From: Williamsia sp. DF01-3 | Lineage (GTDB): Bacteria > Actinomycetota > Actinomycetes > Mycobacteriales > Mycobacteriaceae | Direction: 5' to 3' | DNA length: 64,000 bases | NCBI RefSeq assembly: GCF_023051145.1 | Contig: NZ_JALKFS010000005.1 | Coordinates: forward strand, 1-64,000 | In this document: one piece after another, positions 12,568 through 56,879 of the stretch | Position numbering within the stretch: position 1 is the first letter of the stretch | Layout: the number at the start of each line of letters is the position of its first letter | Program-made: the position numbers and the translations under genes | Notes under the pieces: model-generated | Database searches by the model: none | Told to the model about the DNA's origin: nothing | Seen by the model: the letters and a program-made list of their open reading frames with translations, nothing else

Positions 12568-12900
12568 CCACACGATCGCGAGCAATCAGACGTTCGTAGT
12601 AAGAACCCACTCATTCTGGCTTGCAGCGACTTCCGCTCAGTGAGACTCTCCAGTTACCTGTGCGCTGGGTCACTGCATCATTGCGTCATGCGCTCTCGGC
12701 TCAGCTCCCGCGTCTCGCGGACTGTCGGTGACTGGATGATGTCCACCGTGGCGGTCACCTACATCAGTGACGGTCAGGGCACCGGGCGGTGGTTCACTTC
12801 TTCACCTTGGACAGAGGTCACCGAGCTGCGGTTGTCGGCGGATACTGTCGGCACTCTGCTGCAGATGACGAGCCCTGTCATCATCGCTGGCCGATGTGGT
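12568..12900. other. Convergent gap with one stray island regulatory site and no gene
   Basis: No convincing gene is present; a 91-codon open frame (12640-12915, +) has no ribosome site and no recognisable domain. The gap holds ACTTCCGCTCAGTGAGACT (12629-12647), a good match to the island palindrome, and TGTGCGCTGGGTCACTG (12659-12675). The latter recurs with one mismatch at 52436-52452 near the other end of the island. The gap may be a relic of a promoter region. Confidence 0.5.
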
Positions 12901-13662
12901 TCATCCCCAACGTGATTGACCACCGTCGAGTGGAATGGTCGCTCCGGTGAGATACCCGGCATCTGGCCCCACCAGGAAGACGATGGCCCGGCCGATGTCG
13001 CTCTCGGGGTCACCTACACGGCCGAGCGGGATACCCGCCACAAACGCAGCTGCTTCTTCGGGATTCTTCTCCATCCACCGGTCGAGGGCGGGCGAGGCGG
13101 CGTGCGGGGCGACCGACAGGACTCTGATTCCGTCACCACCCCACTCGCACGCTGCCGCCCGCGTGAGCGACCGCATGCCTTCTTTGATCGACCCGTAGGC
13201 GCCGTAATTGCTTGCGTCCCAGCGCACTGCCGCTGAGGTCACGAGATTGATGATGACGCCGCCGCCACGTGCCTTCATGTGGGGATGGCATAGCTGCATC
13301 ATCCGTAGGGTCGCGAGCGGCCCGGTGGCAAACGACCGTTCGTAGTCCTCGTCGACGATCGACAGGATCGGGCCCGGCTTGCAGTCGTTGGCGTTGTTCA
13401 CCAGGATGTCGACCGACCCGAGAGCGGCCACCGTGCCATCGACCGCGCGCGCGATGTCCTCGCGATCGCTCACGTCGCAGACGATCGGTTCAGCACGCGC
13501 GCCCAGATCGGTCAGCATCGCACAGGTGTCGAGCAGCTTGGACGCCGTCCGGCCGGCCACGGCAATCGCCGCGCCCTCCTTGGCCAAGGCGAGTGCGATG
13601 CCCTGTCCGATCCCCTGACCTGCTCCGGTTATCAGCGCCACCTTGCCGTCGAGTGTTCCCAT
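12901..13662 (-). CDS. SDR family oxidoreductase (candidate hydroxysteroid dehydrogenase)
   Basis: The 253-residue classical SDR has the NAD(P)-binding TGAGQGIGQGIA, an altered NNAG motif (NNAN), the active-site serine in NLVTSAAV, YGAYGSIKE as the Y-x3-K pair and a C-terminal LTGATIPLDGG. AAAGGAAG lies 5' of the ATG. It is divergent from another SDR gene, with two copies of the island palindrome in the shared promoter region. It probably oxidises or reduces a ring hydroxyl or ketone of a steroid; the position cannot be read. Confidence 0.8.
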   Translation of the reverse strand: MGTLDGKVALITGAGQGIGQGIALALAKEGAAIAVAGRTASKLLDTCAMLTDLGARAEPIVCDVSDREDIARAVDGTVAALGSVDILVNNANDCKPGPILSIVDEDYERSFATGPLATLRMMQLCHPHMKARGGGVIINLVTSAAVRWDASNYGAYGSIKEGMRSLTRAAACEWGGDGIRVLSVAPHAASPALDRWMEKNPEEAAAFVAGIPLGRVGDPESDIGRAIVFLVGPDAGYLTGATIPLDGGQSRWG

Positions 13663-13772
13663 GCTGCACTTCCTTTCAAGGTTCTGTCAGATCTGTTCAC
13701 GTGCTGCGCGGGCAGGGGCGCGGGATCTCACGGGCCAGGACGGTAATGGCCGAGCTCGGCCGGGAGTCCTGC

Positions 13773-13817
13773 ACTCCCGTTCACCGAGACCCTGCTCAGA
13801 TCCCGCTGGGCGGGACT
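13773..13817. promoter_or_regulatory. Two tandem copies of the island 19-bp palindrome
   Basis: ACTCCCGTTCACCGAGACC (13773-13791) and GATCCCGCTGGGCGGGACT (13799-13817) have centres 26 bp apart. They lie in the divergent region between two SDR genes. Both match the consensus GGTCTCGCTNAGCGAGACC found throughout the island. Confidence 0.65.
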
Positions 13818-13894
13818 GCGACCAACCACGGCCACCGCAGCATCTAGCGTCCGTGGCAGGCGCCGGACAGCGCACCGACTGGGAAGGGATGCTG

Positions 13895-14707
13895 ATGGAT
13901 CCGCGTACCGACTGGGACTTCTCAGGCAGAAGTGTTGTCGTGACGGGCGGCACCAAAGGCATCGGATTCGTCGTGGCAACGGCGTTCCTAGAGGCCGGTG
14001 CCGACGTGATGGTCTGTGGTCGGCACACCCCCGCCACGCTGCCGCACCACTCCGGCCGAACGGCATCGTTCCGCGCCACCGATGTCCGGGATCCCTCGGA
14101 CGCAGCCGGCTTGATCGACGACACCGTCGCGGCACACGGCGGGCTCGACGTTCTGGTGAACAATGCCGGCGGTTCCCCCGATGCCGATGCCGCCACCGTC
14201 TCGCCGCGATTTGTCGAGAAGATACTCGCACTCAATCTCCTCGCGCCCTTTTACGCCGCCCAAGCCGCGAACTCGGTGATGCAAACCAATCCCGAGGGCG
14301 GTTCCATCATCAACATCGGCAGTGTCTCGGCCCACGACCCCCAGCCGGGCACTGCCGCATACAGCGCCGCCAAGGCCGGCCTGCTCGTCCTCACCAGAGC
14401 CCTGGCTCTGGAATGGGCGCCTGCCGTACGCATCAATCACATCACCACGGGTCTCATTCGCACCGAGAGCGCGGCCTCGGTATACGGCGACGACGGCGGG
14501 GCAGCCGTCATCAACACGCTCCCGATGGGCCGGATGGCCGTCCCAGACGACATCGCCAACGCCTGCCTGTTCCTCGCGAGCCGATCGGCGTCATATGTCA
14601 ACGGTGCAGACCTCGCCGTCCACGGCGGTGGTGAGTACCCCGCTCGGTATGTCGCCACCCACAGCGGTGTCAGCCAGCGCTCGGTGGCACGGGAAGGTGT
14701 GCGCTGA
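13895..14707 (+). CDS. SDR family oxidoreductase
   Basis: The 270-residue SDR has the cofactor site TGGTKGIGFVVA, NNAG (VLVNNAGGSP), active-site serine in NIGSVSAHD and Y-x3-K in AAYSAAKAGL. The ATG at 13895 follows GGAAGGGA at 13882-13889 with normal spacing; an in-frame ATG at 13889 overlaps that site. It is the first of four closely spaced + strand oxidoreductase genes (13895-17220). Substrate is probably a hydroxysteroid or an acyl-CoA intermediate, by context only. Confidence 0.8.
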   Translation: MDPRTDWDFSGRSVVVTGGTKGIGFVVATAFLEAGADVMVCGRHTPATLPHHSGRTASFRATDVRDPSDAAGLIDDTVAAHGGLDVLVNNAGGSPDADAATVSPRFVEKILALNLLAPFYAAQAANSVMQTNPEGGSIINIGSVSAHDPQPGTAAYSAAKAGLLVLTRALALEWAPAVRINHITTGLIRTESAASVYGDDGGAAVINTLPMGRMAVPDDIANACLFLASRSASYVNGADLAVHGGGEYPARYVATHSGVSQRSVAREGVR

Positions 14708-14712
14708 CCGCC

Positions 14713-15588: not shown

Positions 15589-15590
15589 CC

Positions 15591-18360: not shown

Positions 18361-18379
18361 GCTCCCGCTCAACGGGACG
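18361..18379. promoter_or_regulatory. Island palindrome upstream of kshB
   Basis: GCTCCCGCTCAACGGGACG matches the 19-bp consensus. It overlaps the end of the MaoC-like gene, 73 bp upstream of the kshB ATG. Confidence 0.6.
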
Positions 18380-27004: not shown

Positions 27005-27023
27005 AGTCTCGGTGAGTGGTAAC
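27005..27023. promoter_or_regulatory. Weak island palindrome between OYE and acyl-CoA synthetase
   Basis: AGTCTCGGTGAGTGGTAAC has a good left half and a poor right half. It lies in the divergent gap 26939-27128, in a position comparable with the other sites. Confidence 0.4.
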
Positions 27024-27128
27024 GGTCACCATGAATACGTGGCGCCATGACATTTTGTGACCAGAATCCCAGTCCCGTTGAGCAGCCCGAGCGTGGCGAG
27101 CACAGCAGTACTACCGAAAGGCCTCCGC

Positions 27129-28790
27129 ATGACTGCGTCCACCGATCTCCAGCACCATCTTGATCAAGTGGTGGCCCGCCTGGTCGGCCCGGGTGGGCCG
27201 TTCGAGCTGGTCGACGAAGAGATCCTCGGCGCCAGCATGTCGGTGATGAAACACCGCAGGCGCGCCGTGGCCGAACTGCTCCCGTTGTCGGCGACATGGG
27301 GGACAAACGATTACCTTGTCACCACCGACCGGCGGATCTCGTACGCCGACCATCTTTCTGCAGTTGCCGCACTGGCAGCTGGGTTCGCCGAGAGGTACGG
27401 GGTGGGCAAGGGTGACCGGGTCGCAATCCTGGCGGCGAACACCCCGGAGTGGGTCATGACCTTCTGGGCCACACAGGCGCTCGGGGCCATCACCGTTGGC
27501 CTGAACGGCTGGTGGGTACCTCGCGAGGTCACCTACGGGATCGAGCACAGTCGGCCGAAGGTACTGGTGGTCGACGCCAAAAGGGCTGCCGCCCTACCGG
27601 AACTGCCGGACACCGTCACCGTCCTGACCATGGAAGACGACCTCCCCGCGCTGATCGCGGAGTTCAGCGGCGTCGACCTTCCGAGCGTCGACATCGACGA
27701 AGACGACCCTTCGGTGATCCTCTACACCAGCGGCACCAGCGGGCGCCCCAAGGGCGCTCTGCACTCGCAGCGCAACCTGCTCGCGGTCGTGGACTACCAG
27801 CGGTTCGCCGAGGCGTTCACGGCCGAGCTACGCGGACAGACTCCTGACCCGTCTGCGCCCAGTTCTGCACGCCACCTGCTGACCTCGCCGCTCTTCCACA
27901 TCGCGAGCCTGCACAACCTCGTGGTCCCGCGCCTGGCGACCGGCAGCGCGGTCGTGATGAATCAGGGGGCTTTCGACGCCGACACCGTCCTGGCGCTCAT
28001 CGAGCGTGAACGGGTCACCAATTGGGGTGCCGTGCCCACCATGGCCACCAGGCTCCTCGAGCACGACAACGTCGAGAAGTACGACCTCTCGTCCCTGACG
28101 TCGTTTGCGTTGGCTTCCGCGCCGTCATCGGTGGCGTTCAAAGAACGCTTGCAGGAGAAGTTCCCCTTCGCCCGCGGCGCGCTGGTCGACAGCTACGGCC
28201 TCACCGAGTGCAGCACTGCCATCGCCGTCGCGACCCCAGCCGACATCGAAGCCTTCCCCGGAACACTCGGAAGGCCGATCATCACCGTCAGCATGGAGAT
28301 CCGCGATGCGTCGGGAGACCCGGTGCCCGACGGGACCGAGGGAGAGGTCTGCGTGCGCAGCCCGTTCGTGATGCTCGGCTACTGGGAAGACGAGCAGGCC
28401 ACAGCTGCCGCCATCGCCCCCGGGCGCTGGCTTCGCACAGGCGATTTCGGCTTGATCGACAACGGCAGGCTCCGGCTCACCGGTCGCCGATCGGACCTGA
28501 TCCTGCGCGGCGGCGAGAATGTCTACCCGACAGAGATCGAACAGTGCCTCGACGAACATCCGGACGTGGCCGAGTGCGCGGTGGTCGGCGTACCGCATCC
28601 GGACCTCGGCCAGGAGGTGGCCGCAGTGGTGGTGACCCGCCCCGGATCGACCACCACCGAGGACCGATTGCGCGCCTTCGCAGCCGAACGACTCTCGTAC
28701 TACAAGGTCCCGACGCAGTGGCGGATCACCGATCAGCCGTTGCCGCGCAACGCAACCGGGAAGATGATGCGTAGGCAGATCGCGTTGTGA
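27129..28790 (+). CDS. Class I adenylate-forming acyl-CoA synthetase (FadD-like)
   Basis: The 553-residue ligase has a complete motif set: P-loop [33 protein letters not shown], hinge [16 protein letters not shown] and the catalytic lysine [13 protein letters not shown] 27129 follows GAAAGG at 27116-27121; in-frame sequence further upstream lacks a ribosome site. In the island it is the only intact ligase, so it is the best candidate for activating a bile-acid or shortened steroid side chain. Substrate specificity cannot be read. Confidence 0.85.
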
Positions 28791-32858: not shown

Positions 32859-34094
<1,236 letters not shown>

Positions 34095-37742: not shown

Positions 37743-37761
37743 GGTCTCGGTTAGTGAGACC
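37743..37761. promoter_or_regulatory. Best example of the island palindrome, between an HsaA-like gene and kshA
   Basis: GGTCTCGGTTAGTGAGACC has perfect outer arms GGTCTC/GAGACC. It is centred about 93 bp from the kshA start and 82 bp from the HsaA-like start. Confidence 0.7.
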
Positions 37762-40182: not shown

Positions 40183-41109
40183 TCAGATGTCGACCGGTGG
40201 CGCAAAGGCGGCAAGGGGTTCGGAGCCCGACCAATCGTGACCCCAGTAGCTGTCGGCGGTGATTTCTTCGGCGGTGTAATGGCTTTCGTCGACCAGCATG
40301 CCCTCGGTGCCGAACTCGAGGTCCCAGCCGCCGGGTGCGCGCACATAGAACGACACCATCTTGTCGTTGGTGTGGCGGCCCAGTGTCGAGGAGAGGCTGA
40401 ACCCCAACTTGTTCACACGATCGAGGGCCTGCCCGACGGCGTCGAGAGTGTCGACCTCCACCATCAGGTGCACCATGCCGGGGTCCTGACTCGCCGGCGC
40501 CGGACACAGCGCGAGGCTGTGGTGACGCTGATTGACTCCGAGGAACCGCACTCTCCGGGCCGGGGCGGGGGCATCGGGACCGCCGAGGCGGATGGCGCCT
40601 CGCGGGAGGAAGCCGAGCACCTCGGTGTAGAAGGCGTACGTCTCGTCGAATGCCGAGGTCGGGAGCACAGCATGACCGAGTCCCTCTGTGCCGGTGACGA
40701 ACCGGCCGCCGTGGGGGGTGACGACCGGGCTGTGGTCGAGTACCGGACCGAAGAAGATCTCCGTCCTGGTACCGGACGGGTCGTCGAAGGCGATGACCTG
40801 CTCGGCATCGCGATACAGCGATTCCTTCTCGGACAACACGTCCACCGTGATGCCCGCCTTCTCGATCGCCTCGCGAACACGCTGCAGGGCAAATTGGTCG
40901 CGTACCTCCCAGCCGATGGCCAGCGCCTTGTCCGACTCGCCGGGCAAGACGACGATGCGGGAACGCCGCTCGTCGAGGCGGAGGTAGAGACCGTCGGCTT
41001 CCGGACCCGAACCCGTCGACATGCCCAATCCGTCGACTGTCAGTTCGCGCCAGCGGTCGACGTCCCGGGTCTGGACCCGCAGGTATCCGAGTGCTCGTAT
41101 GTCGGTCAT
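40183..41109 (-). CDS. hsaC: 3,4-DHSA extradiol dioxygenase HsaC
   Basis: The 308-residue type I extradiol dioxygenase has two vicinal-oxygen-chelate repeats. The iron ligands are His146 (GLGHAVLP), His214 (MVHLMVEVD) and Glu265 (WDLEFGTEG). HsaC cleaves the catechol ring of 3,4-dihydroxy-9,10-seco steroid. GAAAGG precedes the ATG. It is the last gene of the seven-gene hsaD-kstD-hsaEGFA-hsaC operon and ends at a strong hairpin. Confidence 0.93.
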   Translation of the reverse strand: MTDIRALGYLRVQTRDVDRWRELTVDGLGMSTGSGPEADGLYLRLDERRSRIVVLPGESDKALAIGWEVRDQFALQRVREAIEKAGITVDVLSEKESLYRDAEQVIAFDDPSGTRTEIFFGPVLDHSPVVTPHGGRFVTGTEGLGHAVLPTSAFDETYAFYTEVLGFLPRGAIRLGGPDAPAPARRVRFLGVNQRHHSLALCPAPASQDPGMVHLMVEVDTLDAVGQALDRVNKLGFSLSSTLGRHTNDKMVSFYVRAPGGWDLEFGTEGMLVDESHYTAEEITADSYWGHDWSGSEPLAAFAPPVDI

Positions 41110-41130
41110 GGTGAACCTTTCGTTTCCGGT

Positions 41131-42309
41131 CTAGATCATCGAGCGATGCGGGCCCTGGGGCTCGCCGCCCATCTGGGTGAGCGCAGAGGCGTGAAAGATC
41201 GACCCCGGCACGTGGATTGCGTGCGCCAAGCCCGCGTGGGCGTCGCGCCAAAACCGTTGCATCGGGGTCTTGAGCTGCAACGCGCCGCCGCCCGACCGTG
41301 CAAAGACCTCGTCGACCGCCCGCACCACACGCCATGCTGCAGCGGTTTGAGTTCGCCTGCCGATGGCACGCAGCTCGAACGACACCTCCTGGCCCTTTTC
41401 CGTCATGTCCCAGAATCGGTCGACCGTCTCGAGGATCGCCGCCCTTGATGCAGCGATCTCCGCCGCTGCCTCACCGATTGCGAACAGAACGTAGGGGTCT
41501 TCTTTGATCGCCGTGCCCGACACCGTGACCCGATCGCGCTGAGTGTTGATGTGACACGCGAGCGCGCCCTCGGCGATACCGATCAGGGACGAGGTGATCC
41601 CGAGCGGGAAGATGCACGAGAACGGGAAGTTGTAGAGGGTCTGGGTGCGGCCGAACTCCTTGGCTGCGGTTCCGTCGAACACCTTGCCTGCGGCGAGAGT
41701 TCGATACGTGGGGATGAAGGCGTCCTTGACGATGAGGTCTTTGCTGCCGGTACCGCGCAGCCCCACGACATTCCAGCTGTCCGGGTCGATGTCGTAGTCC
41801 GAGCGCGGGAGCAACACGTGCAGGTTCTGCGGCGGCATCAGCCGGTTGCCGTCTTTGTCGCCGACGGCGGCGCCGATCATGATCCACCCGCAATGGTCGG
41901 TACCTGAGGAGAACGACCAGCGCCCGTTGAGGATGTAGCCGCCCTCTACAGGCTTCGCCACACCCATGGGGGCATAGGGGGAGGCCATCCACATGTCGGG
42001 GTCCTCACCCCAGATCTCGTCCTGCGCCTTGCGATCGAAGAAGGCGAGTTCCCACGGGTGCACACCGACGATGCCGCTCACCCAGCCGGCCGCGCCGTCG
42101 ATGGCTCCAATACCCATTGCGGTCTCCGCGAACTCGCGAGGATGTGCCTCGTATCCGCCGTATTCCTTCGGCTGCAGCATGCGGATGACCCCGGAGTCTC
42201 GCAATCGTTTCGCCGAGGTGTCCGACAGCCGCATGAGCTTGTCACCTTCCACGCCCTCCGCGCGGATCTCCTCGGCGAATTGCTGAATGTTGTCCAGAAC
42301 CTGGCCCAT
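41131..42309 (-). CDS. hsaA: 3-HSA hydroxylase, oxygenase subunit HsaA
   Basis: The 392-residue flavin-dependent monooxygenase of acyl-CoA dehydrogenase fold has VIRMLQPKEYGGYEAHP, WELAFFDRKAQDEIWG, FSSGTDHCGWIMIGA and WRDAHAGLAHAIHVPG. It uses reduced flavin from HsaB to hydroxylate the phenolic ring A (C4) of 3-HSA. It sits 21 bp upstream of hsaC, as expected for consecutive steps. Size matches characterised HsaA. Confidence 0.9.
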   Translation of the reverse strand: MGQVLDNIQQFAEEIRAEGVEGDKLMRLSDTSAKRLRDSGVIRMLQPKEYGGYEAHPREFAETAMGIGAIDGAAGWVSGIVGVHPWELAFFDRKAQDEIWGEDPDMWMASPYAPMGVAKPVEGGYILNGRWSFSSGTDHCGWIMIGAAVGDKDGNRLMPPQNLHVLLPRSDYDIDPDSWNVVGLRGTGSKDLIVKDAFIPTYRTLAAGKVFDGTAAKEFGRTQTLYNFPFSCIFPLGITSSLIGIAEGALACHINTQRDRVTVSGTAIKEDPYVLFAIGEAAAEIAASRAAILETVDRFWDMTEKGQEVSFELRAIGRRTQTAAAWRVVRAVDEVFARSGGGALQLKTPMQRFWRDAHAGLAHAIHVPGSIFHASALTQMGGEPQGPHRSMI

Positions 42310-42346
42310 GATGTTCTCGGCTTTCTGATAGGTACCCGGCGAACGC

Positions 42347-43375
42347 CTAGGCAGAGGTTGTTTCCGCGAGACCGATCGCGATCTCGATCAGCTGGTCTTC
42401 TTGTCCGCCCACGAGCTTGCGTCGACCGGCCTCGATGAGGATTTCCGCGCCGGAGACCCCATAGCGTTCGCCCTGTTTGTCGGCGTGCTTGAGGAAACTC
42501 GAGTAGACGCCTGCGTATCCCATCGTCAGCGACATCCGATCCAGGAGGCACTCGCCGTCCATGATCGGCCGTACGACGTCCTCGGCGGCGTCGAACATCC
42601 TGAGTGTGTCGATACCCGTTCGGATGCCGAGCTTCTCGGTCACCGCGGCGAATGCCTCTACCGGGGTGTTGCCCGCCCCGGCCCCGAATCGGCGAGTGGA
42701 ACCGTCGATCTGGAGTGCACCGGCCTTCACCGCGAGGACGGAGTTCGCAACGCCTAGTCCGAGGTTCTCGTGTCCGTGGAAACCGACCTGAGCGTCCTCC
42801 CCGAGTTCTGATACCAGAGCAGACACTCGATCGCTGACGTCGTCGAGTACCAGTGCGCCGGCTGAATCCACCACGTACACACACTGACAACCCGCGTCAG
42901 CCATGATCCGCGCCTGCTTCGCGAGCACCTCGGGCGGTTGACTGTGCGACATCATCAAGAACCCCACGGTCTCGAGCCCCAACTCACGCGCCAACCCGAA
43001 ATGCTGAATCGACACATCGGCCTCGGTGCAATGCGTCGCGATACGACAGATCTGCGCACCGTTGTCCTGGGCCGCCCGGATATCGTCCTTGATCCCCAGA
43101 CCAGGCAACATCAAGAACGCGATCTTCGCCGTCGTCGCCGTCTCGACCGCCGCCCGGATCAACTGCTGCTCAGGAGTCTTCGAGAACCCATAGTTGAACG
43201 ACGACCCACCCAGACCATCACCATGGGTCACCTCGATAACCGGAACACCCGCACCATCGAGGGCGGCGACGACCGCCTTGACGTGCTCAACGGTGAATTG
43301 GTGGCGCTTTGCGTGGGACCCGTCGCGCAACGACGAGTCGGTGATCCGGATGTCGAGATCAGGACTGTAGGGCAT
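42347..43375 (-). CDS. hsaF: 4-hydroxy-2-oxovalerate/-hexanoate aldolase HsaF
   Basis: The 342-residue class II aldolase of DRE-TIM type has [17 protein letters not shown] (metal Asp and catalytic His/Arg), [15 protein letters not shown] and the metal-binding [15 protein letters not shown]. It splits 4-hydroxy-2-oxohexanoate into pyruvate and propanal, which is channelled to HsaG. As the sequence stands, its start overlaps the 3' end of hsaG, but that overlap is an effect of a frameshift in hsaG; the natural gap is probably 32 bp. Confidence 0.93.
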
Positions 43376-44309
43376 GAGTGTTCCTTAGGAAGATCAGTTC
43401 GGGCGGTTCAGACGGCGCCGGCGAGCAGGTTCGAAGCGAAACCTCGCCGACTTTGGTCGCGGCGGCGGTCATGATGTCGAGGTTGCCCGAGTAGGGCGGC
43501 AAATAGTCGCCGGCGCCTTCCACCTCGAGAAAGATCTCGACGCGCGCCAGTCCGCCGCTCACCGCGCTGGGTTCGTCGAATTGCGGTTCGGTCCGCAACC
43601 GGTAGCCGGGCACGTACTGCTGCACCGAGCCCGCCATCTCGTAGATCGACGCCGCGATGGCATCACGATCGGCGTCGGCCGGGATGGAACAGAAGACCGT
43701 GTCCCGCATGAACATCGGCGGCTCGGCGGGGTTCAGGATGATGATCGCCTTGCCCCGCTTTGCCCCACCTATGGTCTCGATTCCGCGACTGGTGGTGATG
43801 GTGAACTCGTCGATGTTGCCTCGGGTTCCAGGCCCCGCAGACGGTGACGCGACACTCGCGACGATCTCGGCGTAGGCGACCTCAGCAACACGAGACACCG
43901 CGTGCACCATGGGGATCGTGGCCTGGCCACCACAGGTGATGAGATTGACGTTGGGCGCGTCGAGGTGTTCGCCCATGTTCACCGACGGGATCACCGCCGG
44001 ACCGAGCGCCGCGGGCGTCAGATCGACGGCGGTGATACCGAGTTCGGCGTACCGAGGCGCGTTTGCACGGTGAACATAGGCCGAGGTCGCCTCGAAGACG
44101 AGGTCGGGCTTCTCGTCCTGCGAGAGAAGCCAATCGACGCCTTCCGAACTGGTCGCCATGCCGGCGTCGGTCGCGCGCCGAAGCCCTTCACTCTGGGGAT
44201 CGACTCCGATCATCCACCGCGGCTCGATGATGTCCGAGCGCAGCAACTTGTACATCAGATCGGTGCCGATGTTGCCGGATCCGACGATGGCGGCCTTCGC
44301 CTTGGTCAT
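43359..44309 (-). CDS. hsaG: Acylating acetaldehyde/propanal dehydrogenase HsaG, C terminus frameshifted
   Basis: The 316-residue reading has [16 protein letters not shown], the catalytic Cys126 in [11 protein letters not shown] and [19 protein letters not shown]. After GE the read frame gives [15 protein letters not shown], unlike the family. Adding one base near 43439-43443 gives [11 protein letters not shown] and a stop at 43408, the normal ending. It converts propanal plus CoA plus NAD+ to propionyl-CoA, bound to HsaF. The aberrant tail is probably a sequencing deletion; if real, only the last helix is altered. Confidence 0.9.
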
Positions 44310-44319
44310 GGGTTCTTCC

Positions 44320-45105
44320 TCACTTGAATTGCGCTGTCACGGAGCCGATGCCGCTGAAGTCGGCCCGGAAGGTCGAGCCTGCATGCACGTCGATCGCCCG
44401 GGTACACGAGCCGGGCAGGATGACGTGACCGGCCTCGAGGCGTACCCCGAAGCCCGCGACCGTGCGTGCCAGCCACGCAACGGCCTTCGTCGGATTCCCG
44501 AGAACTGCGCTCGCCTCTCCGTGAGCGATCTCCACGCCGTCCTCGAAGAGCACCGCTGAGATGCCTCCGATGTCGATGTCCGACGGCCGGACTCTCCCCG
44601 CACCGAGGATGACCCCTGCGGACGAAGCATTGTCGGCGATGGTGTCGACCAGACCGATCTTCCAATTCCTGATCCGTGAATCGATCAGCTCGATACTCGG
44701 AACGATGTATTCGGTGGCAGCGAGCACGTCTTCTTCGGTGCAGCCCTCGCCAGGAAGGGTCTCGCCCAGCACGTAGCCGATCTCGACTTCGATACGGGGG
44801 TAACAGAATTGCGCGGTGTCGATCGGGGCGTCCTCGGAATACACCATCGACGACAGGAGATGTCCGTAGTCGGGCTCGTCGACACCCATCATCGCCTGCA
44901 TCACCTCGGAAGACAGGCCGACCTTGTGGCCGTACACGGTCTCGCCGGCAGCCAGGCGCCTGCCGATGTTGATCAGCGCGATCTCGTACGCGTCGACCAC
45001 ATCGATCTGCTCGAATGTCGTACTCAGAGGATCGATCGGCGAGCGGTGTGCTTCGGCGTACCACAGGAGGTCGGCGGCCGACAGGCGTTCGTCATCGATC
45101 AGCAT
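44320..45105 (-). CDS. hsaE: 2-hydroxyhexa-2,4-dienoate hydratase HsaE
   Basis: The 261-residue hydratase of the MhpD/FAH-related family has [41 protein letters not shown] (metal-binding Glu residues) and a C-terminal [16 protein letters not shown]. It hydrates the C6 dienoate freed by HsaD. The ATG overlaps the kstD stop (ATGA). Longer readings upstream in the frame run into kstD and are discarded. Next to hsaG and hsaF, as in other seco-steroid clusters. Confidence 0.92.
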
Positions 45106-46808
45106 CAGGCTGTGGCCGAATCGAGCGTTGCGCCCCGTTCGGTCGCCGACACATGCCGGGCCGCGATGTAGCCGAACACCATCGACGGTCCGATCGTCGC
45201 TCCTGCGCCGGCATATTCGTTGCCCATCACCGACGCCGACGTGTTGCCGGTGGCGTACAGGCCGTCGATGACCGTTCCGTCCTCGCGCAGCACTCGACTG
45301 TCTGCGTCGCACACCAAACCACCCTTGGTTCCCAGGTCACCTGCCTCACAACGGATTGCGTAGAAGGGCCCCTTGACGATCTCGTCGAGGTTGGGGTTCT
45401 TCATCGTCGGATCTCCGTAGTAACGGTCGTATGCGCTCTCGCCGCGACCGAAGTCCTCGTCCACACCTGAGCGCGCGAAGCCGTTGAAACGGTCGATCGT
45501 CTCCACCAGCGCGTCGGCTGGGACACCGATCGCTTCGGCCAGCTCACGCAGCGTGTCGGCTTTATGCACGACGCCGGAGTCGTAGAACCCCTGAGGGAAG
45601 GGAACGTTCGGAAGTACTTGCGCGAACGGGTACCGATTCTTGGCCTTGGTGTCCATGATGAACCATGCCGGGATGTGCCCGCCCTCCAGCTGTTCGTGCA
45701 CGAAGTTCACGTAGGGAGCCGACTCATTGGTGAAACGCTTTCCGGCGCTGTTCACGATCACCGATGGCGGGATACACCGCTCAGAAACCAACGGGATGAC
45801 TGCACCCATGGGATGAAGGACCGATGGCATCCACCACGCGTCGTCCATGAGGTCTACTGCCGCCCCGAGACGCTGTCCCGCAACGATCCCGTCGCCGACG
45901 TTCTCTCGGGCACCCGAACTGACGTCGGCCACACCGTGTCGGGGCAGGTACTGTGCCCGCATCTCTTTGTTGTGGTCGAAACCGCCGGTCGCCAGCAACA
46001 CGCCGCGGCGCGCACCGATACGAATGGTTGTGCCATCACGTTCGGCCACCACACCGATGACCGTTCCGCGGTCGTCGGTGATCAGTTCGGTCATCGACGT
46101 CTTCAGCCATAGGGGGACGCCTGCGTCCTTGAGGACCATGCGCATCCGTGCGACCAGGGCACGGCCGCCGGTCGCCATGTGCCGGCGTCGGATCACGTTG
46201 GAGGACACCCGCCACGCTGCGACCAGCGAGGCCCTGCGCCCCTTCCACGTTCTCTTGACCATGGCGAGGTCGTGGTAGTCCTTCGATGTGACCCAGAGTC
46301 CCAGTGGACCTTTCATGCTGTTCGGGCGCTGGAACTTCTCGTCTTCCTTCAGCGCGCGGGTGTCGAAGGGCTTGCACTCGATGGTGCGGCCCAGCGCGCT
46401 CCCACCTTCGAACTCGGGGTGATAGTCCGAGTACCCCTTGACCCAGTAGAGCTTCATGTGCGGGCTCTTGTCGAGCAGTTCCATGAGCGCGGGCCCGTTG
46501 TCGACAAAAGCGTCGAGGCGATCCGCGGGCACCTTGCCGTCGGTGATGACGTCGAGGTAGCGACGAATTGAACTGCGCTTGTCGACTACACCCTTTGCCC
46601 GGAGTGTGGGCGCGTTGGGAATCCAGATGCCGCCGCCGGAGATGGCGGTGGATCCACCGTAGGTGGCGCCCTTGTCGATGATGAGTGTGTCGAGTCCGCT
46701 GTGCGCGGCGGTGATTCCGGCCGCCATGCCACCGCCGCCGCTCCCCACGATCAGGAAGTCGACGACTGTCTCGAACTGTCGGGTGTCGAACCGGTTGTTG
46801 TCGGTCAT
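45105..46808 (-). CDS. kstD: 3-ketosteroid delta-1-dehydrogenase KstD
   Basis: The 567-residue flavoprotein has FAD motif VGSGGGGMAAGITAA (21-35), YGGSTAISGGGIWIPN, GVLLATGGFDHNKEMR and the C-terminal TGNTSASVMGNEYAGAGATIGP. It introduces the 1,2 double bond that, with C9 hydroxylation by KshAB, triggers ring B opening. The ATG lies 2 bp after the hsaD stop. The extension of this frame upstream of 46808 is a shadow of hsaD. The start of hsaE overlaps the end. Confidence 0.92.
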   Translation of the reverse strand: MTDNNRFDTRQFETVVDFLIVGSGGGGMAAGITAAHSGLDTLIIDKGATYGGSTAISGGGIWIPNAPTLRAKGVVDKRSSIRRYLDVITDGKVPADRLDAFVDNGPALMELLDKSPHMKLYWVKGYSDYHPEFEGGSALGRTIECKPFDTRALKEDEKFQRPNSMKGPLGLWVTSKDYHDLAMVKRTWKGRRASLVAAWRVSSNVIRRRHMATGGRALVARMRMVLKDAGVPLWLKTSMTELITDDRGTVIGVVAERDGTTIRIGARRGVLLATGGFDHNKEMRAQYLPRHGVADVSSGARENVGDGIVAGQRLGAAVDLMDDAWWMPSVLHPMGAVIPLVSERCIPPSVIVNSAGKRFTNESAPYVNFVHEQLEGGHIPAWFIMDTKAKNRYPFAQVLPNVPFPQGFYDSGVVHKADTLRELAEAIGVPADALVETIDRFNGFARSGVDEDFGRGESAYDRYYGDPTMKNPNLDEIVKGPFYAIRCEAGDLGTKGGLVCDADSRVLREDGTVIDGLYATGNTSASVMGNEYAGAGATIGPSMVFGYIAARHVSATERGATLDSATA

Positions 46809-46810
46809 GT

Positions 46811-47680
46811 CTACGTCCTGTCCTTGCGGGTGAGGAAGGCCAGCACCGCCGAGACCCAGGCGTCGCGGGCCTCGATCATCGTCCAGTGCCCGCACTTCGG
46901 GAAAACGTGGAGTTCGCTGTTCGGGATGTCTCGCATCGGCAGGATCGCCATGTCGACCGGACTCACCCGGTCGTCGCGCCCCCAGGTCAGGAGCGTCGGA
47001 GCTTTGATTTTGCCGAGCTGCGACCAATACGGCGGCGCCTCTGAGCGCGCTGCCGCGACCATGGTGGCGGCAAAGGCCTTGCTGCTGTACATCCGTCGGG
47101 CGATCTCGAGGGTTGTCGGCTCGGTCGCCAGCTCCCAGCGCTCGTCGATCAGTTCAGGGGTGATCACGGCCGGGTCATAGACCATCGACCGGAGCCAGCG
47201 GACCAATCCTTCGCGGGTGGGGTTGTCGGTGAACTCCATCAGGAGCTTGATTCCCTCGCTGGGCCCCGGAGAAAAGGCGGCCTTGCCCATTCCACCGATG
47301 GTGACCAACTTGTCGACCCTGCTGGGTTCATCGATCGCGACCTTGGTGGCGACGATCCCGCCCATCGAGTTCCCGATCATGTGCGCGGTATCGATCTCGA
47401 GACCATCGAGAAAGAGTCCGACGGCGGACTGCGCCATCGACATCGGGTGGCCGTCACCGGGATCACTTACCCCGAAACCAGGGAATTCGAGTATCAGGCA
47501 ACGGAAATGCTCGGCCAGTTCGGGAAGCACTCCCCGATAGTTCCTCCACCCGGTCACCCCGGGCCCGGAGCCGTGGAGCAGCAGCAGTGGTGGGCCCTCG
47601 CCTGCCTCATGGAACCGGAGCACCCCGAGATCGGTGTTCAACTCCCGCAGACTGCGCTCGTAGCTCACGTCTGTCGTCAT
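46811..47680 (-). CDS. hsaD: Meta-cleavage product hydrolase HsaD (4,9-DSHA hydrolase)
   Basis: The 289-residue alpha/beta hydrolase has the oxyanion motif LLHGSGPGVTGW, the nucleophile Ser105 in GNSMGG, Asp236 in WGRDDRVSP and His265 in KCGHWTMIE. HsaD cleaves the C-C bond in the HsaC product to give the dienoate for HsaE and the C/D-ring propionate (HIP-type) acid. It is the first gene of the leftward operon; two island palindromes lie in the divergent promoter shared with hsaB. Confidence 0.93.
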   Translation of the reverse strand: MTTDVSYERSLRELNTDLGVLRFHEAGEGPPLLLLHGSGPGVTGWRNYRGVLPELAEHFRCLILEFPGFGVSDPGDGHPMSMAQSAVGLFLDGLEIDTAHMIGNSMGGIVATKVAIDEPSRVDKLVTIGGMGKAAFSPGPSEGIKLLMEFTDNPTREGLVRWLRSMVYDPAVITPELIDERWELATEPTTLEIARRMYSSKAFAATMVAAARSEAPPYWSQLGKIKAPTLLTWGRDDRVSPVDMAILPMRDIPNSELHVFPKCGHWTMIEARDAWVSAVLAFLTRKDRT

Positions 47681-47720: not shown

Positions 47721-47789
47721 GGTCTCGTTGAGCGAGATCCCCAGCACGCCAGGGCCAGCCGGATTCTGGCGCTTCCGCTGAGCGAGACC
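47721..47789. promoter_or_regulatory. Two island palindromes in the hsaD-hsaB divergent promoter
   Basis: GGTCTCGTTGAGCGAGATC (47721-47739) lies next to hsaD and GCTTCCGCTGAGCGAGACC (47771-47789) next to hsaB; centres are 50 bp apart. The 183-bp gap controls both the seven-gene hsa operon and the flavin reductase gene. Confidence 0.7.
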
Positions 47790-47863: not shown

Positions 47864-48367
47864 ATGTCGATCGAAACGATGTCGCAGACCGACATGCGAA
47901 AGGCACTGGGTCAGTTCGCAAGCGGTGTCACCGTGGTCGCCGGTATGGACGACGAGGGACCTATCGGTTTCGCCTGCCAGTCGTTCGCCTCGGTGTCGCT
48001 TGAGCCTCCCCTGATCCTGTTCTGCGCCGACCACCGCGGGAGGTCTTGGCCCCGTATCCGGAACACGGGCCGCTTCAGCATCAACGTGCTGCACGAGAAC
48101 CAAACCGATCTGTGTTCCCGATTCGGATCGAGCAACGGGCGCAAGTACGAGGGGCTCGACTGGGATCTGAGCAAGTGGGCGACGCCGTCGCTCCCAGGTG
48201 TGCTGATGCGGGTACATGCCGAGATCCACGACGTGCACACCGCAGGCGATCACGACGTGGTGATCGGCCGAATCCTGGAGTTGGAGTCGGTCACCGAGGA
48301 GCGTCCGATGATCTTCTTCCGCGGCGGATTCGGCCTCGACACCGCTTCAAAGCTCCTGCGTGCCTAA
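47864..48367 (+). CDS. hsaB: 3-HSA hydroxylase, flavin reductase subunit HsaB
   Basis: The 167-residue flavin reductase-like protein has MRKALGQFASGVTVVAGM, FACQSFASVSLEPPLILFC and RFSINVLHENQTDLCSRF, typical of HpaC-type two-component reductases. It makes reduced flavin with NADH for HsaA, and possibly for the HsaA-like oxygenase at 36504-37670. It is divergent from hsaD and convergent with the IclR gene. ATG 47864 is used; 47879 is an alternative. Confidence 0.9.
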   Translation: MSIETMSQTDMRKALGQFASGVTVVAGMDDEGPIGFACQSFASVSLEPPLILFCADHRGRSWPRIRNTGRFSINVLHENQTDLCSRFGSSNGRKYEGLDWDLSKWATPSLPGVLMRVHAEIHDVHTAGDHDVVIGRILELESVTEERPMIFFRGGFGLDTASKLLRA

Positions 48368-48401: not shown

Positions 48402-49294
48402 CTACAGCCACTGTCCGGACTGCACGGCGAGCAGTCGATCCAAGGCCTCTGCCGACCATGTGTTGTCCGGCATCGGAGGGGTTTTGCGCCCCCGGCGAGC
48501 GGTACCGGCCTCGGGATACAGGGTGCGCGTGACTTCTCGGACCGCCCGCACGACCAGGGGGGCAACCCGTTTGAGCTGAGCGGTCCGTGCGTCTCCGCAG
48601 AGGGAGATCGCCGCAACCGGGCCGTCGTATCCGCGGACCGCCACTCCGACGCACGCGGCGCCGCGCACGGACTCACCGCGCTCGAATGCCAATCCGCTGC
48701 GCTGTCGGATGCGGTTGAGTTCCTGATGGAGGGTCGGCAGATCAGGGATCGTGTGGTCGGTGCACCGATTCAGACGCTGTTGATAGATCGCGTCGACGCG
48801 CTCCGGATCGAGCCAGGCGAGCATCGACTTTCCGCCGGCGGTGGAATACGCCGCCCGCGTCCACCGACTCGTGAAGGCAGCGATGCAGCGAACCGTCCAC
48901 CGACCTTGTCGAGGTAGATGCTCTCGCCCCCGTCGAGGACCGACAGATGGACCACCATGCCGGTCTGCATGTGCAGATCGTGCAACAGAGGCGCGGCCGC
49001 CGCACGCACCTGTGCATGACCACCGTCCCCTCCGCCGAGACCCATCGACCGCCGGCCGAGTCGGTAGCCGAAAGAGGCGTGTTCCACCCAGTTCAACCGG
49101 ACGAGTTGGTCGAGGATGCGGTGCACCGTCGAACGCGGCAGCTGCGTGCGCCCGGCCACTTCTTCGAGAGTCAGCCGCGACGCCGGGCCGCCGAATGAAT
49201 CGAGGATGAGCGTCATTCGTTCGAGCATCGAGGGCGGCAGATCCCGCTTACCGGCAGAGCGGGGGTGTGCAGCACCGGAATCAATGACCGTCAT
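48402..49294 (-). pseudogene. IclR family regulator, frameshifted in the effector domain
   Basis: From ATG 49294 the winged helix domain is intact (LTLEEVAGRTQLPRSTVHRI, then YRLGRRSMGL). The effector domain begins with MVVHLSVLDGGESIYLDKV. After SRVGGR the frame breaks; the continuation AAYSTAGGKSMLAWLDPERV lies in another frame and runs to 48402. One missing base in the run at 48851-48858 explains it. IclR proteins bind palindromes of 15-20 bp. This gene has an island palindrome in its promoter, so it is a leading candidate for the regulator of that motif. The break may be a sequencing error. Confidence 0.85.
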
Positions 49295-49365
49295 CGAGCC
49301 TCCATAACCTGGTCGAATGCGAGATCCAGGACAAAACTGAAATGAATTCTTGTAATACTAACAGC

Positions 49366-49384
49366 AGTCCCGGTGACTGGGAAG
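49366..49384. promoter_or_regulatory. Island palindrome in the IclR-SnoaL divergent promoter
   Basis: AGTCCCGGTGACTGGGAAG has a strong left half and weaker right half. It lies in the 164-bp divergent gap and could serve autoregulation of the IclR gene. Confidence 0.5.
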
Positions 49385-49965: not shown

Positions 49966-49980
49966 CCACTTGCGCCGAAA

Positions 49981-49996
49981 CTAGAATGAATACTAG
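49981..49996. promoter_or_regulatory. KstR-box-like operator CTAGAATGAATACTAG
   Basis: This 16-mer differs from the box at 34069-34084 at two positions and is flanked by AAA and TTT. It lies 37 bp before the Hsd4A-like ATG. Confidence 0.55.
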
Positions 49997-50032
49997 TTTT
50001 CTTGCAGTAGCCAACACACTGAGGAGCTCAAC

Positions 50033-52246: not shown

Positions 52247-52589
52247 GCAGGCACTGTGACAGCGCCCACCCTTTGGGATCAGAACAGTCCCGGTGAGCGA
52301 GACCTGCCTGTATCGGACGTACCCGCATCACACATCGCCCGGCTCGGCGACTCATCTGTCTCCTCCAAGCCGCCGCGGCGACGACTCGTAGCGCCGAGCA
52401 ACATCCGATTCCGGCCAGTGGGACTGAGCAGTTTGTGTGCGCTGCGTCACTGTAGCTTTTGGCTCACCGCGGCGGAGGCAGCCCGTCTTCGCCCGATCGA
52501 ATCCACATGTACTGCGCCACAGACCTATACGCCGCAGTCGGCGACAGCCGCGTTCGTCACACATGATCACGTCTACCTGGAGGACATCC
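52247..52589. other. Divergent promoter region with an island palindrome
   Basis: No gene is seen. AGTCCCGGTGAGCGAGACC (52286-52304) is a strong island palindrome near the lipase start. TGTGCGCTGCGTCACTG (52436-52452) repeats, with one mismatch, the 17-mer at 12659-12675. Confidence 0.6.
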
Positions 52590-54041
52590 ATGACAACAAT
52601 CCCCGACCCGACGGCACCGGCAAAGCCGTTGCCCGAACGCGGACGCTTCAACCGTCGACGCTCCACCGGGGTGATCATCGGCATCCTGGTCCTGGTCGAG
52701 ATCATCAGCGCTTTCGAGACCTCGATGGTGTTCGCCGCGATCCCGACCATCATCGCCGACTTCAACAGCGACGCTGCGACGGTCGGTTGGGCGGTGACAG
52801 CCTTTCTGCTGGTCGCCGCGGCCTCTGCGGCCGTCTGCGGTCGGCTCGGCGACATGTACGGGCGCGAGCGAGTTCTGGTGTTCATCCTCGCCGCCGCCAC
52901 CATCGGGTCACTGATCAGTGCCCTCGGCGACAGCATCAGTGCCATCATCATCGGCCGTGCGATCCAGGGCGTCGCCGGCGCCATCCTGCCGCTGTGCATC
53001 GGTTTGGCCCGCGAACACCTGCCCAATGTGAAGGTCCCGGTGGCTGTCGCCCTGATCTCCGGGACGGCGGTGGCCGCCGGCGCAGCGTCCGCCTACGTTG
53101 CCGGTTTGATGATCGATCACGCCAGCTGGCACATGATCTTCATCGTCGCGGCCGTCTACGCCGCATTCACCTTGCTGCTTGTGCTGTTCGTGCTGCCCTG
53201 GCGCCGGCCGGTCGGTACCAGCCAGAAGGTGGACTTCCTCGGCACCATCGCCTTCGCCCCGGCAATCGCGGCAATCCTGCTTGCCATCAACAAGTCCGGC
53301 GCCTGGGGATGGAGTGATGCCAAGACACTCGGCCTGCTCATCGGTGGTGCGGTGGTGCTGGCGCTCTGGGTGGTGTGGGAGTTGCGGGTCACCGATCCGA
53401 TCGCAAACGTGCGACTCCTGGCTCACCGCAAGGTCGCGTTGACGATGCTCGCGACGCTGACGCTGGCCGCCGGTCCCTTCGGTATCAGCAACATGATCGT
53501 TCCCCTCGTGCTGCAGACGCCCACGAGCGCGCCCTTCGGCCTGGGCATGACCCCGACCGACGCCGGACTGCTGGCATTCGTCGCAGCACTCCTCGGGTTC
53601 GCGTTCACCCCGTTGAGTGGCCGGATCACGCGCACCATGGGATCGCGGGTCTCGCTCCTGATCGGCGGCCTGGTGTACGGGGTGTCGGGCGTGATGCTGA
53701 TGATGTTCCACGATTCCAAGGTCGGGATGTTTGTCATGGTGGTCACCGTGTCCATCGCGACATCGTTTGCCTACACGGCCCTGCCGAACCTGATCGTGGA
53801 GGAGGTTCCGGTCGAGAACACCAGCGAGGCAACCGGTCTCAACACCGTTGTGCGCACTGCCGGGCAGGGCGTCGGCACGTCGATCGCCACGACCATCCTG
53901 GCGTCGTCCGCTGTTGCCGGTAGCGTCGCGCCCACCGTCAGCGGGCTCAACACCGTCGCCATCGTGATCCTTGTCGGCACCGGATTGACCGTTGGCCTCA
54001 CCTTGATGCTCCGCCGCGGGACGGTCTACGCCGACGCCTGA
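52590..54041 (+). CDS. MFS transporter, DHA2-type, candidate steroid carrier
   Basis: The 483-residue membrane protein has about 14 helices. It shows the motif A region GRLGDMYGRERVLVF and a DHA2-type QGVAGAILPLCIGLARE. ATG 52590 follows GGAGGA at 52579-52584. It is divergent from the lipase with an island palindrome between them, so it is probably induced with the island. In Rhodococcus an MFS protein (CamM) and an ABC system move cholate or its metabolites; this gene could play such a role. It ends at a strong hairpin, which marks the island's right edge. Confidence 0.82.
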   Translation: MTTIPDPTAPAKPLPERGRFNRRRSTGVIIGILVLVEIISAFETSMVFAAIPTIIADFNSDAATVGWAVTAFLLVAAASAAVCGRLGDMYGRERVLVFILAAATIGSLISALGDSISAIIIGRAIQGVAGAILPLCIGLAREHLPNVKVPVAVALISGTAVAAGAASAYVAGLMIDHASWHMIFIVAAVYAAFTLLLVLFVLPWRRPVGTSQKVDFLGTIAFAPAIAAILLAINKSGAWGWSDAKTLGLLIGGAVVLALWVVWELRVTDPIANVRLLAHRKVALTMLATLTLAAGPFGISNMIVPLVLQTPTSAPFGLGMTPTDAGLLAFVAALLGFAFTPLSGRITRTMGSRVSLLIGGLVYGVSGVMLMMFHDSKVGMFVMVVTVSIATSFAYTALPNLIVEEVPVENTSEATGLNTVVRTAGQGVGTSIATTILASSAVAGSVAPTVSGLNTVAIVILVGTGLTVGLTLMLRRGTVYADA

Positions 54042-55591: not shown

Positions 55592-55823
55592 TCGACCCTT
55601 CCGGGCAGTAAATCGTGCCTTAGGAATCGACAGCGCCGCAGGTGATGCAAGGTCGCTCGCAAAGCTCACAATCGCCGACGCCATCAGCGACGATGCCAGG
55701 CGTGCGCACAGCGGAAGGCCCTGTTATTTTGCTGTTACCTTCCCCGCCGGGCCGCATGCGGCACCGGGGAGAGCACCGGTCCGGATCGGGCCATTCACTG
55801 GCACCACGTACAAAAGGAAACTG

Positions 55824-56783
55824 ATGCGCGCAAAGCACGCCTGGCGAAAGTTCGTCGCCGGAGCCCTTGCCCTTGTGGCCGGAGTGGCAGTCTCGGTGAC
55901 TGCGGCGCCCGGCACTGCGTCGGCAGCCCCTCAGACGGTCTACGTCTACTCCGCCGCGATGAACAAGAACATCCCAGTTCGCGTTCTCCCCGCGTCGGGC
56001 GGTGGCAGCCACGCCACCCTCTACCTGCTCGACGGCTTGCGTGCACCCAACAACAACAGCGGCTGGCTCATCGAGACCGATGTGCAGCAGTTCTTCGCGG
56101 GCAAGAACGTGAATGTGGCGATCCCCTTCGGCGGCGGCGGGAGTTTCTACACCGACTGGCAGCGCGACGACCCGACCCTGGGCCGGCAGAAATGGGAAAC
56201 CTTCCTCACCCGGGAGCTGCCCGCCTACCTGAAGTCGGCGTTCAACAGCGACAACCGCCGCAACGCCATTGCCGGACTCTCGATGAGCGGCACCTCCGCA
56301 TTGAACCTTGCTTCCAAGCACCCCAACTTCTACCGGGGCGTCGCGTCGTACAGCGGCTACCCCACGGTCAGCACCCCCGGGTTTGCACAAGGCATCGCCG
56401 CATCCGTCCTCGAGATGGGCGGCAACCCGGTGAACATGTGGGGCCTGTGGCCGGCCGGAGCCTGGACGGCGAACGATCCCTCGCTGCACACCGGAAACCT
56501 GCGTGGCAAACGTGTATACGTGTCCTCAGGTGCGGGTTCGCCTCGGACAAACCCGATCTTCAACCCGGCGAGCCCGTCATTCGACCCGATCAAGTTCTCC
56601 CAGATGGTGCCGCTGGAGACGGCGGCGTCGATCAGCAGCCAGCTCTACATCGCGAGCCTTCGTGTCGCCGGCGTCAACCCGCAGGTCCACATCACGCCGG
56701 AGGGTGTGCACTGGTGGACCCACTGGGAGGACCGCCTCAAGGAATCCTGGTACGGAACGCTCGCTCCTTCGCTGGGCGTTTAG
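55824..56783 (+). CDS. Antigen 85-type mycolyltransferase / esterase
   Basis: The 319-residue secreted protein has a signal peptide ending near ASA (residues 32-34). The alpha/beta hydrolase fold has the nucleophile Ser153 in GLSMSGTSAL and the C-terminal histidine in VHWWTHWEDRL. These match the Ag85/FbpC family, which transfers mycolic acids between trehalose monomycolates and arabinogalactan. ATG 55824 follows AAAGGAAA. A long in-frame extension to 55440 runs through the HxlR gene and is a shadow. A perfect terminator follows. Confidence 0.88.
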   Translation: MRAKHAWRKFVAGALALVAGVAVSVTAAPGTASAAPQTVYVYSAAMNKNIPVRVLPASGGGSHATLYLLDGLRAPNNNSGWLIETDVQQFFAGKNVNVAIPFGGGGSFYTDWQRDDPTLGRQKWETFLTRELPAYLKSAFNSDNRRNAIAGLSMSGTSALNLASKHPNFYRGVASYSGYPTVSTPGFAQGIAASVLEMGGNPVNMWGLWPAGAWTANDPSLHTGNLRGKRVYVSSGAGSPRTNPIFNPASPSFDPIKFSQMVPLETAASISSQLYIASLRVAGVNPQVHITPEGVHWWTHWEDRLKESWYGTLAPSLGV

Positions 56784-56798
56784 CCCCCACACCAGTTC

Positions 56799-56834
56799 GT
56801 CGGCCGCGACCCAGCTTCCTGGGTCGCGGCCGAC
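56799..56834 (+). terminator. Rho-independent-type terminator
   Basis: A 16-bp perfect stem, GTCGGCCGCGACCCAG (56799-56814) with its complement (56819-56834), encloses a CTTC tetraloop and is followed by a T-rich tract (GTCGTTGTTCTGTGTT). Confidence 0.92.
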
Positions 56835-56860
56835 GTCGTTGTTCTGTGTTCAGGAGACCA

Positions 56861-56879
56861 GGTCTCGGTTCAGTACGTT
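56861..56879. promoter_or_regulatory. Half-match to the island palindrome upstream of the AcuI-like gene
   Basis: GGTCTCGGTTCAGTACGTT has a perfect left arm and a lost right arm. It is preceded by GAGACCA, so GAGACCAGGTCTC (56854-56866) is itself palindromic. It is 49 bp before the next start. Confidence 0.35.

Follow-up and report, generated by a model that had tools for sequence, protein, structure and literature searches.

A 19-bp palindrome, here called motif A (core TCYCGNTNANCGRGA), recurs in the promoters of a steroid degradation cluster of Williamsia sp. DF01-3, in a window of 64,000 nucleotides (contig NZ_JALKFS010000005.1, positions 1 to 64,000). We propose, with a probability of roughly three in four, that motif A is the operator of an IclR-family protein encoded in the cluster, which would activate the steroid operons, and that a KstR-like TetR protein would repress iclR through a second palindrome, motif B (core CTAGAATnnATTCTAG). 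The computation shows both motifs, the density, conservation and spacing of motif A, and which genomes hold which genes; from these we infer who binds what, the activation, the ligand and the feedback.

Density and promoter spacing of motif A

The original prediction had placed a palindrome at 12 positions of the window. When up to 3 mismatches were allowed, the 19-bp pattern had 4 matches in the window, while 100 shuffles gave 0.05 on average and 1 at most, so the palindrome is real. Ten of the 12 listed sites, all but 27005 and 56861, went into a symmetric matrix. On the 64-kb window, the 10 training sites followed by 27005 took ranks 1 to 11; this full-matrix ranking is partly circular, and in a leave-one-out analysis each training site still held a rank between 1 and 11 with at least 15.2 bits. 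Eleven of the listed places thus hold the palindrome; 56861 (rank 2142) was rejected, and a site at 52407 (14.3 bits), next after the top 11, had been missed and was accepted because of its position and spacing. According to simple gene calling, 11 of the 12 accepted sites are intergenic, the exception being 18361, which overlaps a MaoC-type gene at its 3' end.

A similar density elsewhere, or absence from orthologous clusters, had been named as what would refute a functional motif; neither turned out to be the case. With a threshold of 16 bits, 11 matches lie between 12 and 58 kb, whereas 20 other stretches of the genome (400 kb) and the remaining 18 kb of the window hold none; the corresponding counts are 11, 3 and 0 at 15 bits or more, and 14, 9 and 0 at 12 bits. 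The simpler pattern TCNCGNTNANCGNGA has 47 matches in the 5.59-Mb genome (5 with the pattern reversed), and the stricter TCYC...GRGA form has 4 in the window and 6 elsewhere. Therefore, single weak matches are common in the genome, and dense high-scoring promoter arrays are found only here, a statement relative to the 400 kb control and not to the whole genome. In relatives, the surroundings of 80 named iclR loci, 1.557 Mb in all, hold 250 matches of at least 15 bits, which makes 3.2 per 20 kb versus 0.15 per 20 kb in the 400 kb control; at the same threshold we counted 41 in 393 kb (20 stretches around TetR) and 53 in 388 kb (20 stretches around IclR, some of which include a second TetR).

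We then considered the spacing between motif A and the -10 in 462 non-redundant site-gene pairs from relatives, with sites of at least 13 bits located 25-260 nt upstream of homologues of the window genes. A YANNNT hexamer starts at +37, +38 or +39 from the palindrome centre in 77, 70 and 31 pairs, respectively, the mean per offset being 5.3; together these are 178 of the 462, against 13, 16, 15 and 13 in four control triplets. After stricter redundancy removal, the -10-like hexamer was found in 115 of 300 pairs, with a mean of 3.8 per other offset. The hexamer at +37-39 is most evident for kshA (21/24), hsaD (42/78), hsaB (33/70), the thiolase (7/9) and the SDR56 class (7/7), and some LLM15 and hsaE promoters have, by eye, another AT-rich hexamer near the same place. 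In the window itself, YANNNT stands exactly at +37 in 10 of the 24 orientations of the 12 sites (binomial P 1.6e-12 from the intergenic background). Between the palindrome and the -10 no position is conserved among the 462 pairs, and therefore there is no -35 signal. With the hexamer start at -12, the centre of motif A lies at -49. Fixed spacing at such a position is how activators beside the -35 region stand; the placement thus suggests an activator-like geometry, a mechanism on which the original prediction was incomplete. The fixed spacing also makes the activator proposal directly testable.

Motif B and the proposed regulator of motif A

A strongly kept AAGAATTCATTTCAGTTTT element in iclR promoters is part of a 22-bp palindrome family, AAACTAGAATnnATTCTAGTTT, which we call motif B; its core with flanks spans 22 bp and lies near the iclR transcript start. 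In the window, motif B is found in the iclR promoter, where it follows the -10-like TAGTAT (49334..49355), upstream of an SDR gene at 50033-50968 (+) (49978..49999) and upstream of the steroid thiolase gene 32859-34022 (-) (34066..34087), with a weaker copy for the same gene at the end of tetR (34152..34173). At least one motif B of 15 bits or more is present somewhere in 76 of the 80 named iclR loci, and the 400 kb control holds one of 12 bits or more. Allowing one mismatch, CTAGAATnnATTCTAG occurs twice in the genome, both times in the window; allowing two, it occurs 7 times (4 with the pattern reversed), the window pair having 0 and 1 mismatch and the remaining matches being four CTAGAACryGTTCTAG sequences and one other. 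We take these four to be KstR boxes. Motif B resembles the KstR box CTAGAACnnGTTCTAG, which has C/G next to the centre where motif B has T/A. Compared with a KstR box pattern (CTAGAAYnnRTTCTAG-like, 14 specified positions), the four B sites have 0-3 mismatches and the 12 A sites 7-9, which rules out motif A as a KstR box, as had been anticipated. Motif B differs from motif A in its spacing: among 53 non-redundant iclR promoters carrying it, no single offset of an upstream -10-like hexamer exceeds 11.

The TetR protein of the window (34170..34781, -) has KstR (NF033703) as its best NCBIfam match, at 124.8 bits for a cut-off of 280, and judged on its sequence is a relative of KstR, not KstR itself. 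In the alignment its helix-turn-helix closely resembles the KstR one, and its best PDB match is 3bjb (E 5.7e-100), which we take to be from R. jostii RHA1. Because of this best match and the closeness of the helix-turn-helix, motif B would be the natural box of the TetR protein, which probably reads it.

The IclR protein has the recognition helix PRST[VA][HY]R in 19 aligned sequences, with His in 18 of them; in the numbering of Table 5 of the study on IclR-family operators (PMC8222616) it reads Pro27-Arg28-Ser29-Thr30-x-His32-Arg33. In the accessible text of that study, the group 1 motif is GKTYCRYW3-4RYGRAMC, the factors CatR, PcaR, PcaU, PobR and GenR have GTNCG-N5-6-CGNAC motifs, and His32 is linked weakly with C at position 10 (PMC8222616). 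Like group 1 operators, motif A is an odd-length palindrome with YCR and RYGR half-sites; read manually, its consensus agrees with that of group 1 at 12 of 17 positions, partly at 2 and not at 3. It differs in having C/G rather than T/A at -6/+6 and C/G at the centre (PMC8222616), and position 10 corresponds to -6, where it departs from the group 1 consensus. The 12 A sites have 3-6 mismatches to this consensus (11-14 of 17 matched), against an all-position mean of 10.3, and many other places do equally well. The IclR protein resembles PcaR/PcaU/PobR-type regulators in its PRSTxHR helix and proposed catabolic targets (PMC8222616). Comparisons with NCBIfam and PDB gave distant relatives only: the best of the 6 NCBIfam matches of the intact W. 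muralis IclR is PcaR/PcaU/PobR (TIGR02431), with 115.6 bits for a cut-off of 284.75. It is not a member of that subfamily and may work like PobR/PcaU. Two IclR-type activators of catabolic genes are described in the available part of a study of Rhodococcus opacus (PMC9582017).

In the circuit that we propose, IclR would bind at motif A, centred some 49 bp ahead of the transcription start in promoters without a recognisable -35, and would activate CasG and the side-chain genes, KstD, HsaA, KshA, the hsaD-to-hsaC genes, hsaB, the SDR genes and the MFS transporter. It may also activate tetR through the site in the tetR promoter, giving a negative feedback, while at the iclR promoter of the window, where motif A is nearer to the -10 (about +15), it could auto-repress. 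TetR would repress iclR at motif B, which directly follows the iclR -10. Once a steroid ligand freed TetR, iclR would be turned on and its product would activate at motif A.

The initial idea, from the SRTF1 and Lcin1 papers, was that the TetR protein, as a KstR3/SRTF1-type regulator, reads motif A as a repressor of the cluster, the role suggested for KR76_18060 at Lcin1 in N. simplex; the genomes lacking TetR, the TetR promoters of another family and motif B overturned it, and we regard it as unlikely. The idea draws on the occurrence of motif A in the tetR-kstD gap of the window and, in most loci of families f19 and f29, upstream of tetR, on the naming of KR76_18060, a KstR3 orthologue, as presumed Lcin1 factor in the text available to us (PMC7593942), and on SRTF1 of P. 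simplex, which according to the part of the paper considered here binds a palindrome between tetR and kstD (PMC7062782). The same text gives the SRTF1 site as 22 bp long, with one more upstream of the IclR gene SRTF2 (PMC7062782), and this would fit motif B rather than motif A. Nor does repression call for a constant distance to the -10.

What argues for IclR as the reader of motif A, the first candidate of the original prediction, is that the motif usually stays with iclR where TetR is absent, alongside the IclR-family-like consensus and the better box available to TetR. Among 101 genomes of the family, TetR orthologues (E <=1e-40) are found in 31 and IclR relatives (E <=1e-15), many of them paralogues, in 68. 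Nine examined genomes have an IclR relative and no TetR orthologue at 1e-40 (family search) or 1e-38 (second search); in G014, G022, G065, G068, G093 and G096 the best TetR matches reach at most 39% identity. Motif A stands upstream of the IclR relative in seven of the nine, with 18.1 bits in G029, 14.6 in G068, 14.4 in G195, 13.5 in G014 (a genome 66% complete), 12.8 in G065, 10.1 in G022 and 9.8 in G096. A further site is found at a CasG-like gene in G022 and G096 (17.1 bits) and at a kshA-like gene in G065 and G014, and YANNNT stands at +38 in G022, G096 and G014. Scanning 410 nt for each of 38 iclR paralogues gave 9 with motif A at 12 bits or more, one of them inside the gene, for about 0.35 expected from the control density; a paralogue of G039 has a 17.6-bit site and no TetR in its 20-kb locus. 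Conversely, family f21 has 17 genomes in which a TetR relative (39-43% identity) is present and no IclR match at 1e-42; in all of them the TetR promoter lacks motif A (best below 10 bits) and carries a KstR-type box (13.0-17.1 bits). The cluster here holds a matching box B. Separately, the genomes G009, G039, G058, G075 and G091 of genus g10 have 11-17 IclR relatives each (E <=1e-15), an expansion of the IclR family.

Several results weigh against the proposed circuit. Motif A of at least 12 bits is present in the TetR promoters of 26 of 30 family loci, as an auto-operator would be. All 10 genomes of families f19/f29 with a TetR match also have an IclR match, and all 23 chosen named IclR genomes from other groups also have TetR (49-64% identity); since the two regulators nearly always come together, separating them rests on few genomes, in which the IclR relatives have 52-68% identity. 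No motif A was found at the IclR relative of the TetR-less G093, a genome 81% complete, and G181, where the scores are 1.3 and 0.7 bits, respectively, a point in favour of TetR as the reader of motif A. The f21 TetRs probably belong to a different clade, so that their pattern is supporting evidence only. Motif A at 12 bits or more is missing at 29 of the 38 iclR paralogues; among the 80 named iclR loci, 17 score no higher than 7.2 directly upstream of iclR, and 7 have no 15-bit match in the whole locus. Used as a blind scan of the window, the group 1 consensus (PMC8222616) did not rank the A sites first. The hexamer at +37-39 is absent from 284 of the 462 pairs and is poorly represented at LLM15 (1/39), KstD (1/11), TetR (8/42) and IclR (9/47). 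Motif B occurs at iclR in the TetR-less G022, G096 and G068 (none in G029, G014 and G065), which means that another KstR-like protein may read it. Finally, iclR of the window (48402..49294, -) is frameshifted, with intact copies in relatives: its pieces 48402-48824 and 48770-49294, in two frames, match Pfam IclR_C and HTH_IclR.

The pairing of motif A with either protein is our deduction and the geometry asks only for some activator, so that an activator encoded elsewhere in the genome could read it, IclR and TetR both being mere targets; we consider this quite improbable, as motif A lies next to iclR in loci that lack TetR, is also present at some iclR paralogues and has the shape of an IclR-family operator. 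A chance or codon-biased palindrome without function, to which the many weak core matches in the genome might point, is as good as refuted by the density contrast, the conservation across actinobacterial families and the fixed spacing to the -10.

Returning to IclR as the activator at motif A, we lean, with somewhat less confidence than for the window, towards a two-tier switch conserved across several actinobacterial families, with TetR repressing at motif B on iclR and IclR activating the whole regulon through motif A at -49, with negative feedback through tetR. Such a switch would control the aerobic degradation of bile acids and steroids. If an activator of this kind is conserved, with its operator and promoter geometry defined, it would offer a handle for switching on steroid-degrading strains.

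Sites and genes of the window

By their sequences, the genes of the window form a cholate-type steroid degradation cluster; their borders come from a simple codon-bias script and the gene starts are therefore approximate. NCBIfam matches above the cut-off were obtained for CasG, the steroid-24-oyl-CoA synthetase (27057..28790, +; 997.8 bits, cut-off 750), HsaA (36504..37670, -; NF045629, 632.8 bits, cut-off 450), the steroid 3-ketoacyl-CoA thiolase (32859..34022, -; NF005889, 687.5 bits, cut-off 515), 4-hydroxy-2-oxovalerate aldolase and acetaldehyde dehydrogenase, and below the respective cut-offs for the CasI-like, HsaB, HsaC and HsaD proteins. Pfam recognised KshA, a flavin reductase, the MFS transporter, TetR and the two pieces of IclR. 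The other genes are a KstD-like flavoprotein (34927..36486, +; FAD_binding_2), KshA (37845..39008, +; KshA_C), the hsaD-kstD-hsaE-hsaG-hsaF-HsaA-like-hsaC genes, probably one operon (40183..47680, -), the HsaB-like flavin reductase (47864..48367, +) and the MFS transporter (52437..54041, +; start uncertain).

The palindrome is operator-like and common to side-chain, ring and transport genes, as first described. With matrix scores in brackets, the site at 13773..13791 (21.4; TACCGT at +37) is assigned to the SDR gene 12901-13662 (-) and that at 13799..13817 (18.2; TAGCGT at +37) to the SDR-LLM-SDR-SDR genes 13853-17220 (+). The site at 18361..18379 (19.6; TAGTTT at +37) is placed for a ferredoxin-reductase-like gene ending at 17233 (-). 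Between the side-chain genes led by an old yellow enzyme (-; TACGGT at +37) and casG (+; CATTTT at +37) lies 27005..27023 (16.9, outside the training set). The site between tetR (-) and kstD (+), 34856..34874 (18.8), has no YANNNT at +34..+41 on either side, and 37743..37761 (21.1) lies between hsaA (-; TACCAT at +40) and kshA (+; TAGCGT at +37). The hsaD-led ring operon (-) has 47721..47739 (22.5; CAACGT at +37) and hsaB (+) has 47771..47789 (21.0; TAGCCT at +37). The site between iclR (-) and a SnoaL-like gene (+), 49366..49384 (17.9), is close to the -35 region on the iclR side because TAGTAT stands at about +15 there. The lipase-like gene (-) has 52286..52304 (23.7; CACAGT at +37) and the MFS transporter (+) has 52407..52425 (14.3; TAGCTT at +37). 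In the pairs 13773/13799, 47721/47771 and 52286/52407, each site faces one of two divergent promoters. The site at 12629..12647 (20.0) faces no called gene; the CATCAT at +38 on its + side is -10-like and precedes the ATG at 12688 of a small open reading frame (12688-12915, +), which may be leaderless and reaches into the SDR gene at the end of the latter.

Some further features were noted. The host belongs to Williamsia, not Gordonia, and is close to W. muralis: over 147 residues the iclR piece shows 100% identity to the loci of two W. muralis records, and the cluster DNA is 94-97% identical to W. muralis loci. A record named Kitasatospora arboriphila (L212, NZ_JNYV01000002.1) likewise holds an iclR that matches the W. 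muralis one at 100% identity across 147 residues, and is probably mislabelled or contaminated. The lipase-like gene (51015-52246, -) also looks split into two frames near 51911 when compared with W. muralis; this split and that of iclR are real mutations or assembly errors, an assembly fault being possible for both. In W. muralis BULT 1.1, the frame of iclR differs near its end. The CasI-like ligase (24035-25796, -) seems to lie in two overlapping frames (24035-25312 and 24894-25796), and its profile matched from position 169 only. The hsaC-like gene and an SDR gene are separated by a long inverted repeat at 40089-40160, with arms of 36 nt (92%), which is perhaps a bidirectional terminator; neither this repeat nor the inverted repeat at 56798-56835 is a copy of motif A.

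Comparison with known steroid regulators

Motif A had been thought an orphan, perhaps undescribed. By sequence it is the same motif as Lcin1, TCCCGGT[C/G]ACCGGGA, which the available text reports for the lithocholate-induced cholate-type cluster E of Nocardioides simplex VKM Ac-2033D and also before HsaEGF-type genes (PMC7593942). The observation was confirmed and the earlier interpretation partly supported, the motif being already in print and the regulator well guessed; the mechanism proposed here is clearer than that in the original prediction or in the available text on Lcin1. The window sites share the 15-bp layout of Lcin1, none being a perfect copy; an exact Lcin1-type core, TCCCGGTCACCGGGA, is found upstream of iclR in one genome of family f29 (L201). 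Both motifs stand before cholate-type genes, here CasG, HsaA, KshA and the hsaD-led genes including hsaE-G-F. They differ in the regulator: in that paper, as far as its available part goes, the KstR3 orthologue KR76_18060 is given tentatively and the authors ask for further research (PMC7593942), whereas we favour IclR with an activator spacing. In searches of one open-access literature collection, supplements left aside, we found no link of Lcin1 to an IclR protein. The IclR reading would correct the proposed Lcin1 regulator and, if the two-tier switch is true, Lcin1 would be reassigned from repressor to activator.

Pimelobacter simplex SRTF1 is described, in the part of the text considered, as a TetR protein that binds a 22-bp palindrome as well as another site, ahead of the IclR gene SRTF2, and its ligand is progesterone (PMC7062782). 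The window resembles this system in having tetR divergent from kstD, and motif B at iclR would fit; the letters of the SRTF1 site are not in that text (PMC7062782). IclR with motif A might make a second biosensor part pair beside SRTF1.

The cholate cluster of Rhodococcus jostii RHA1 was reportedly described by Mohn in 2012, and the window resembles it in its CasG, HsaA, KshA, KstD and steroid thiolase genes. According to the accessible part of another paper, a KstR homologue is encoded in the RHA1 cholate cluster (PMC8399759).

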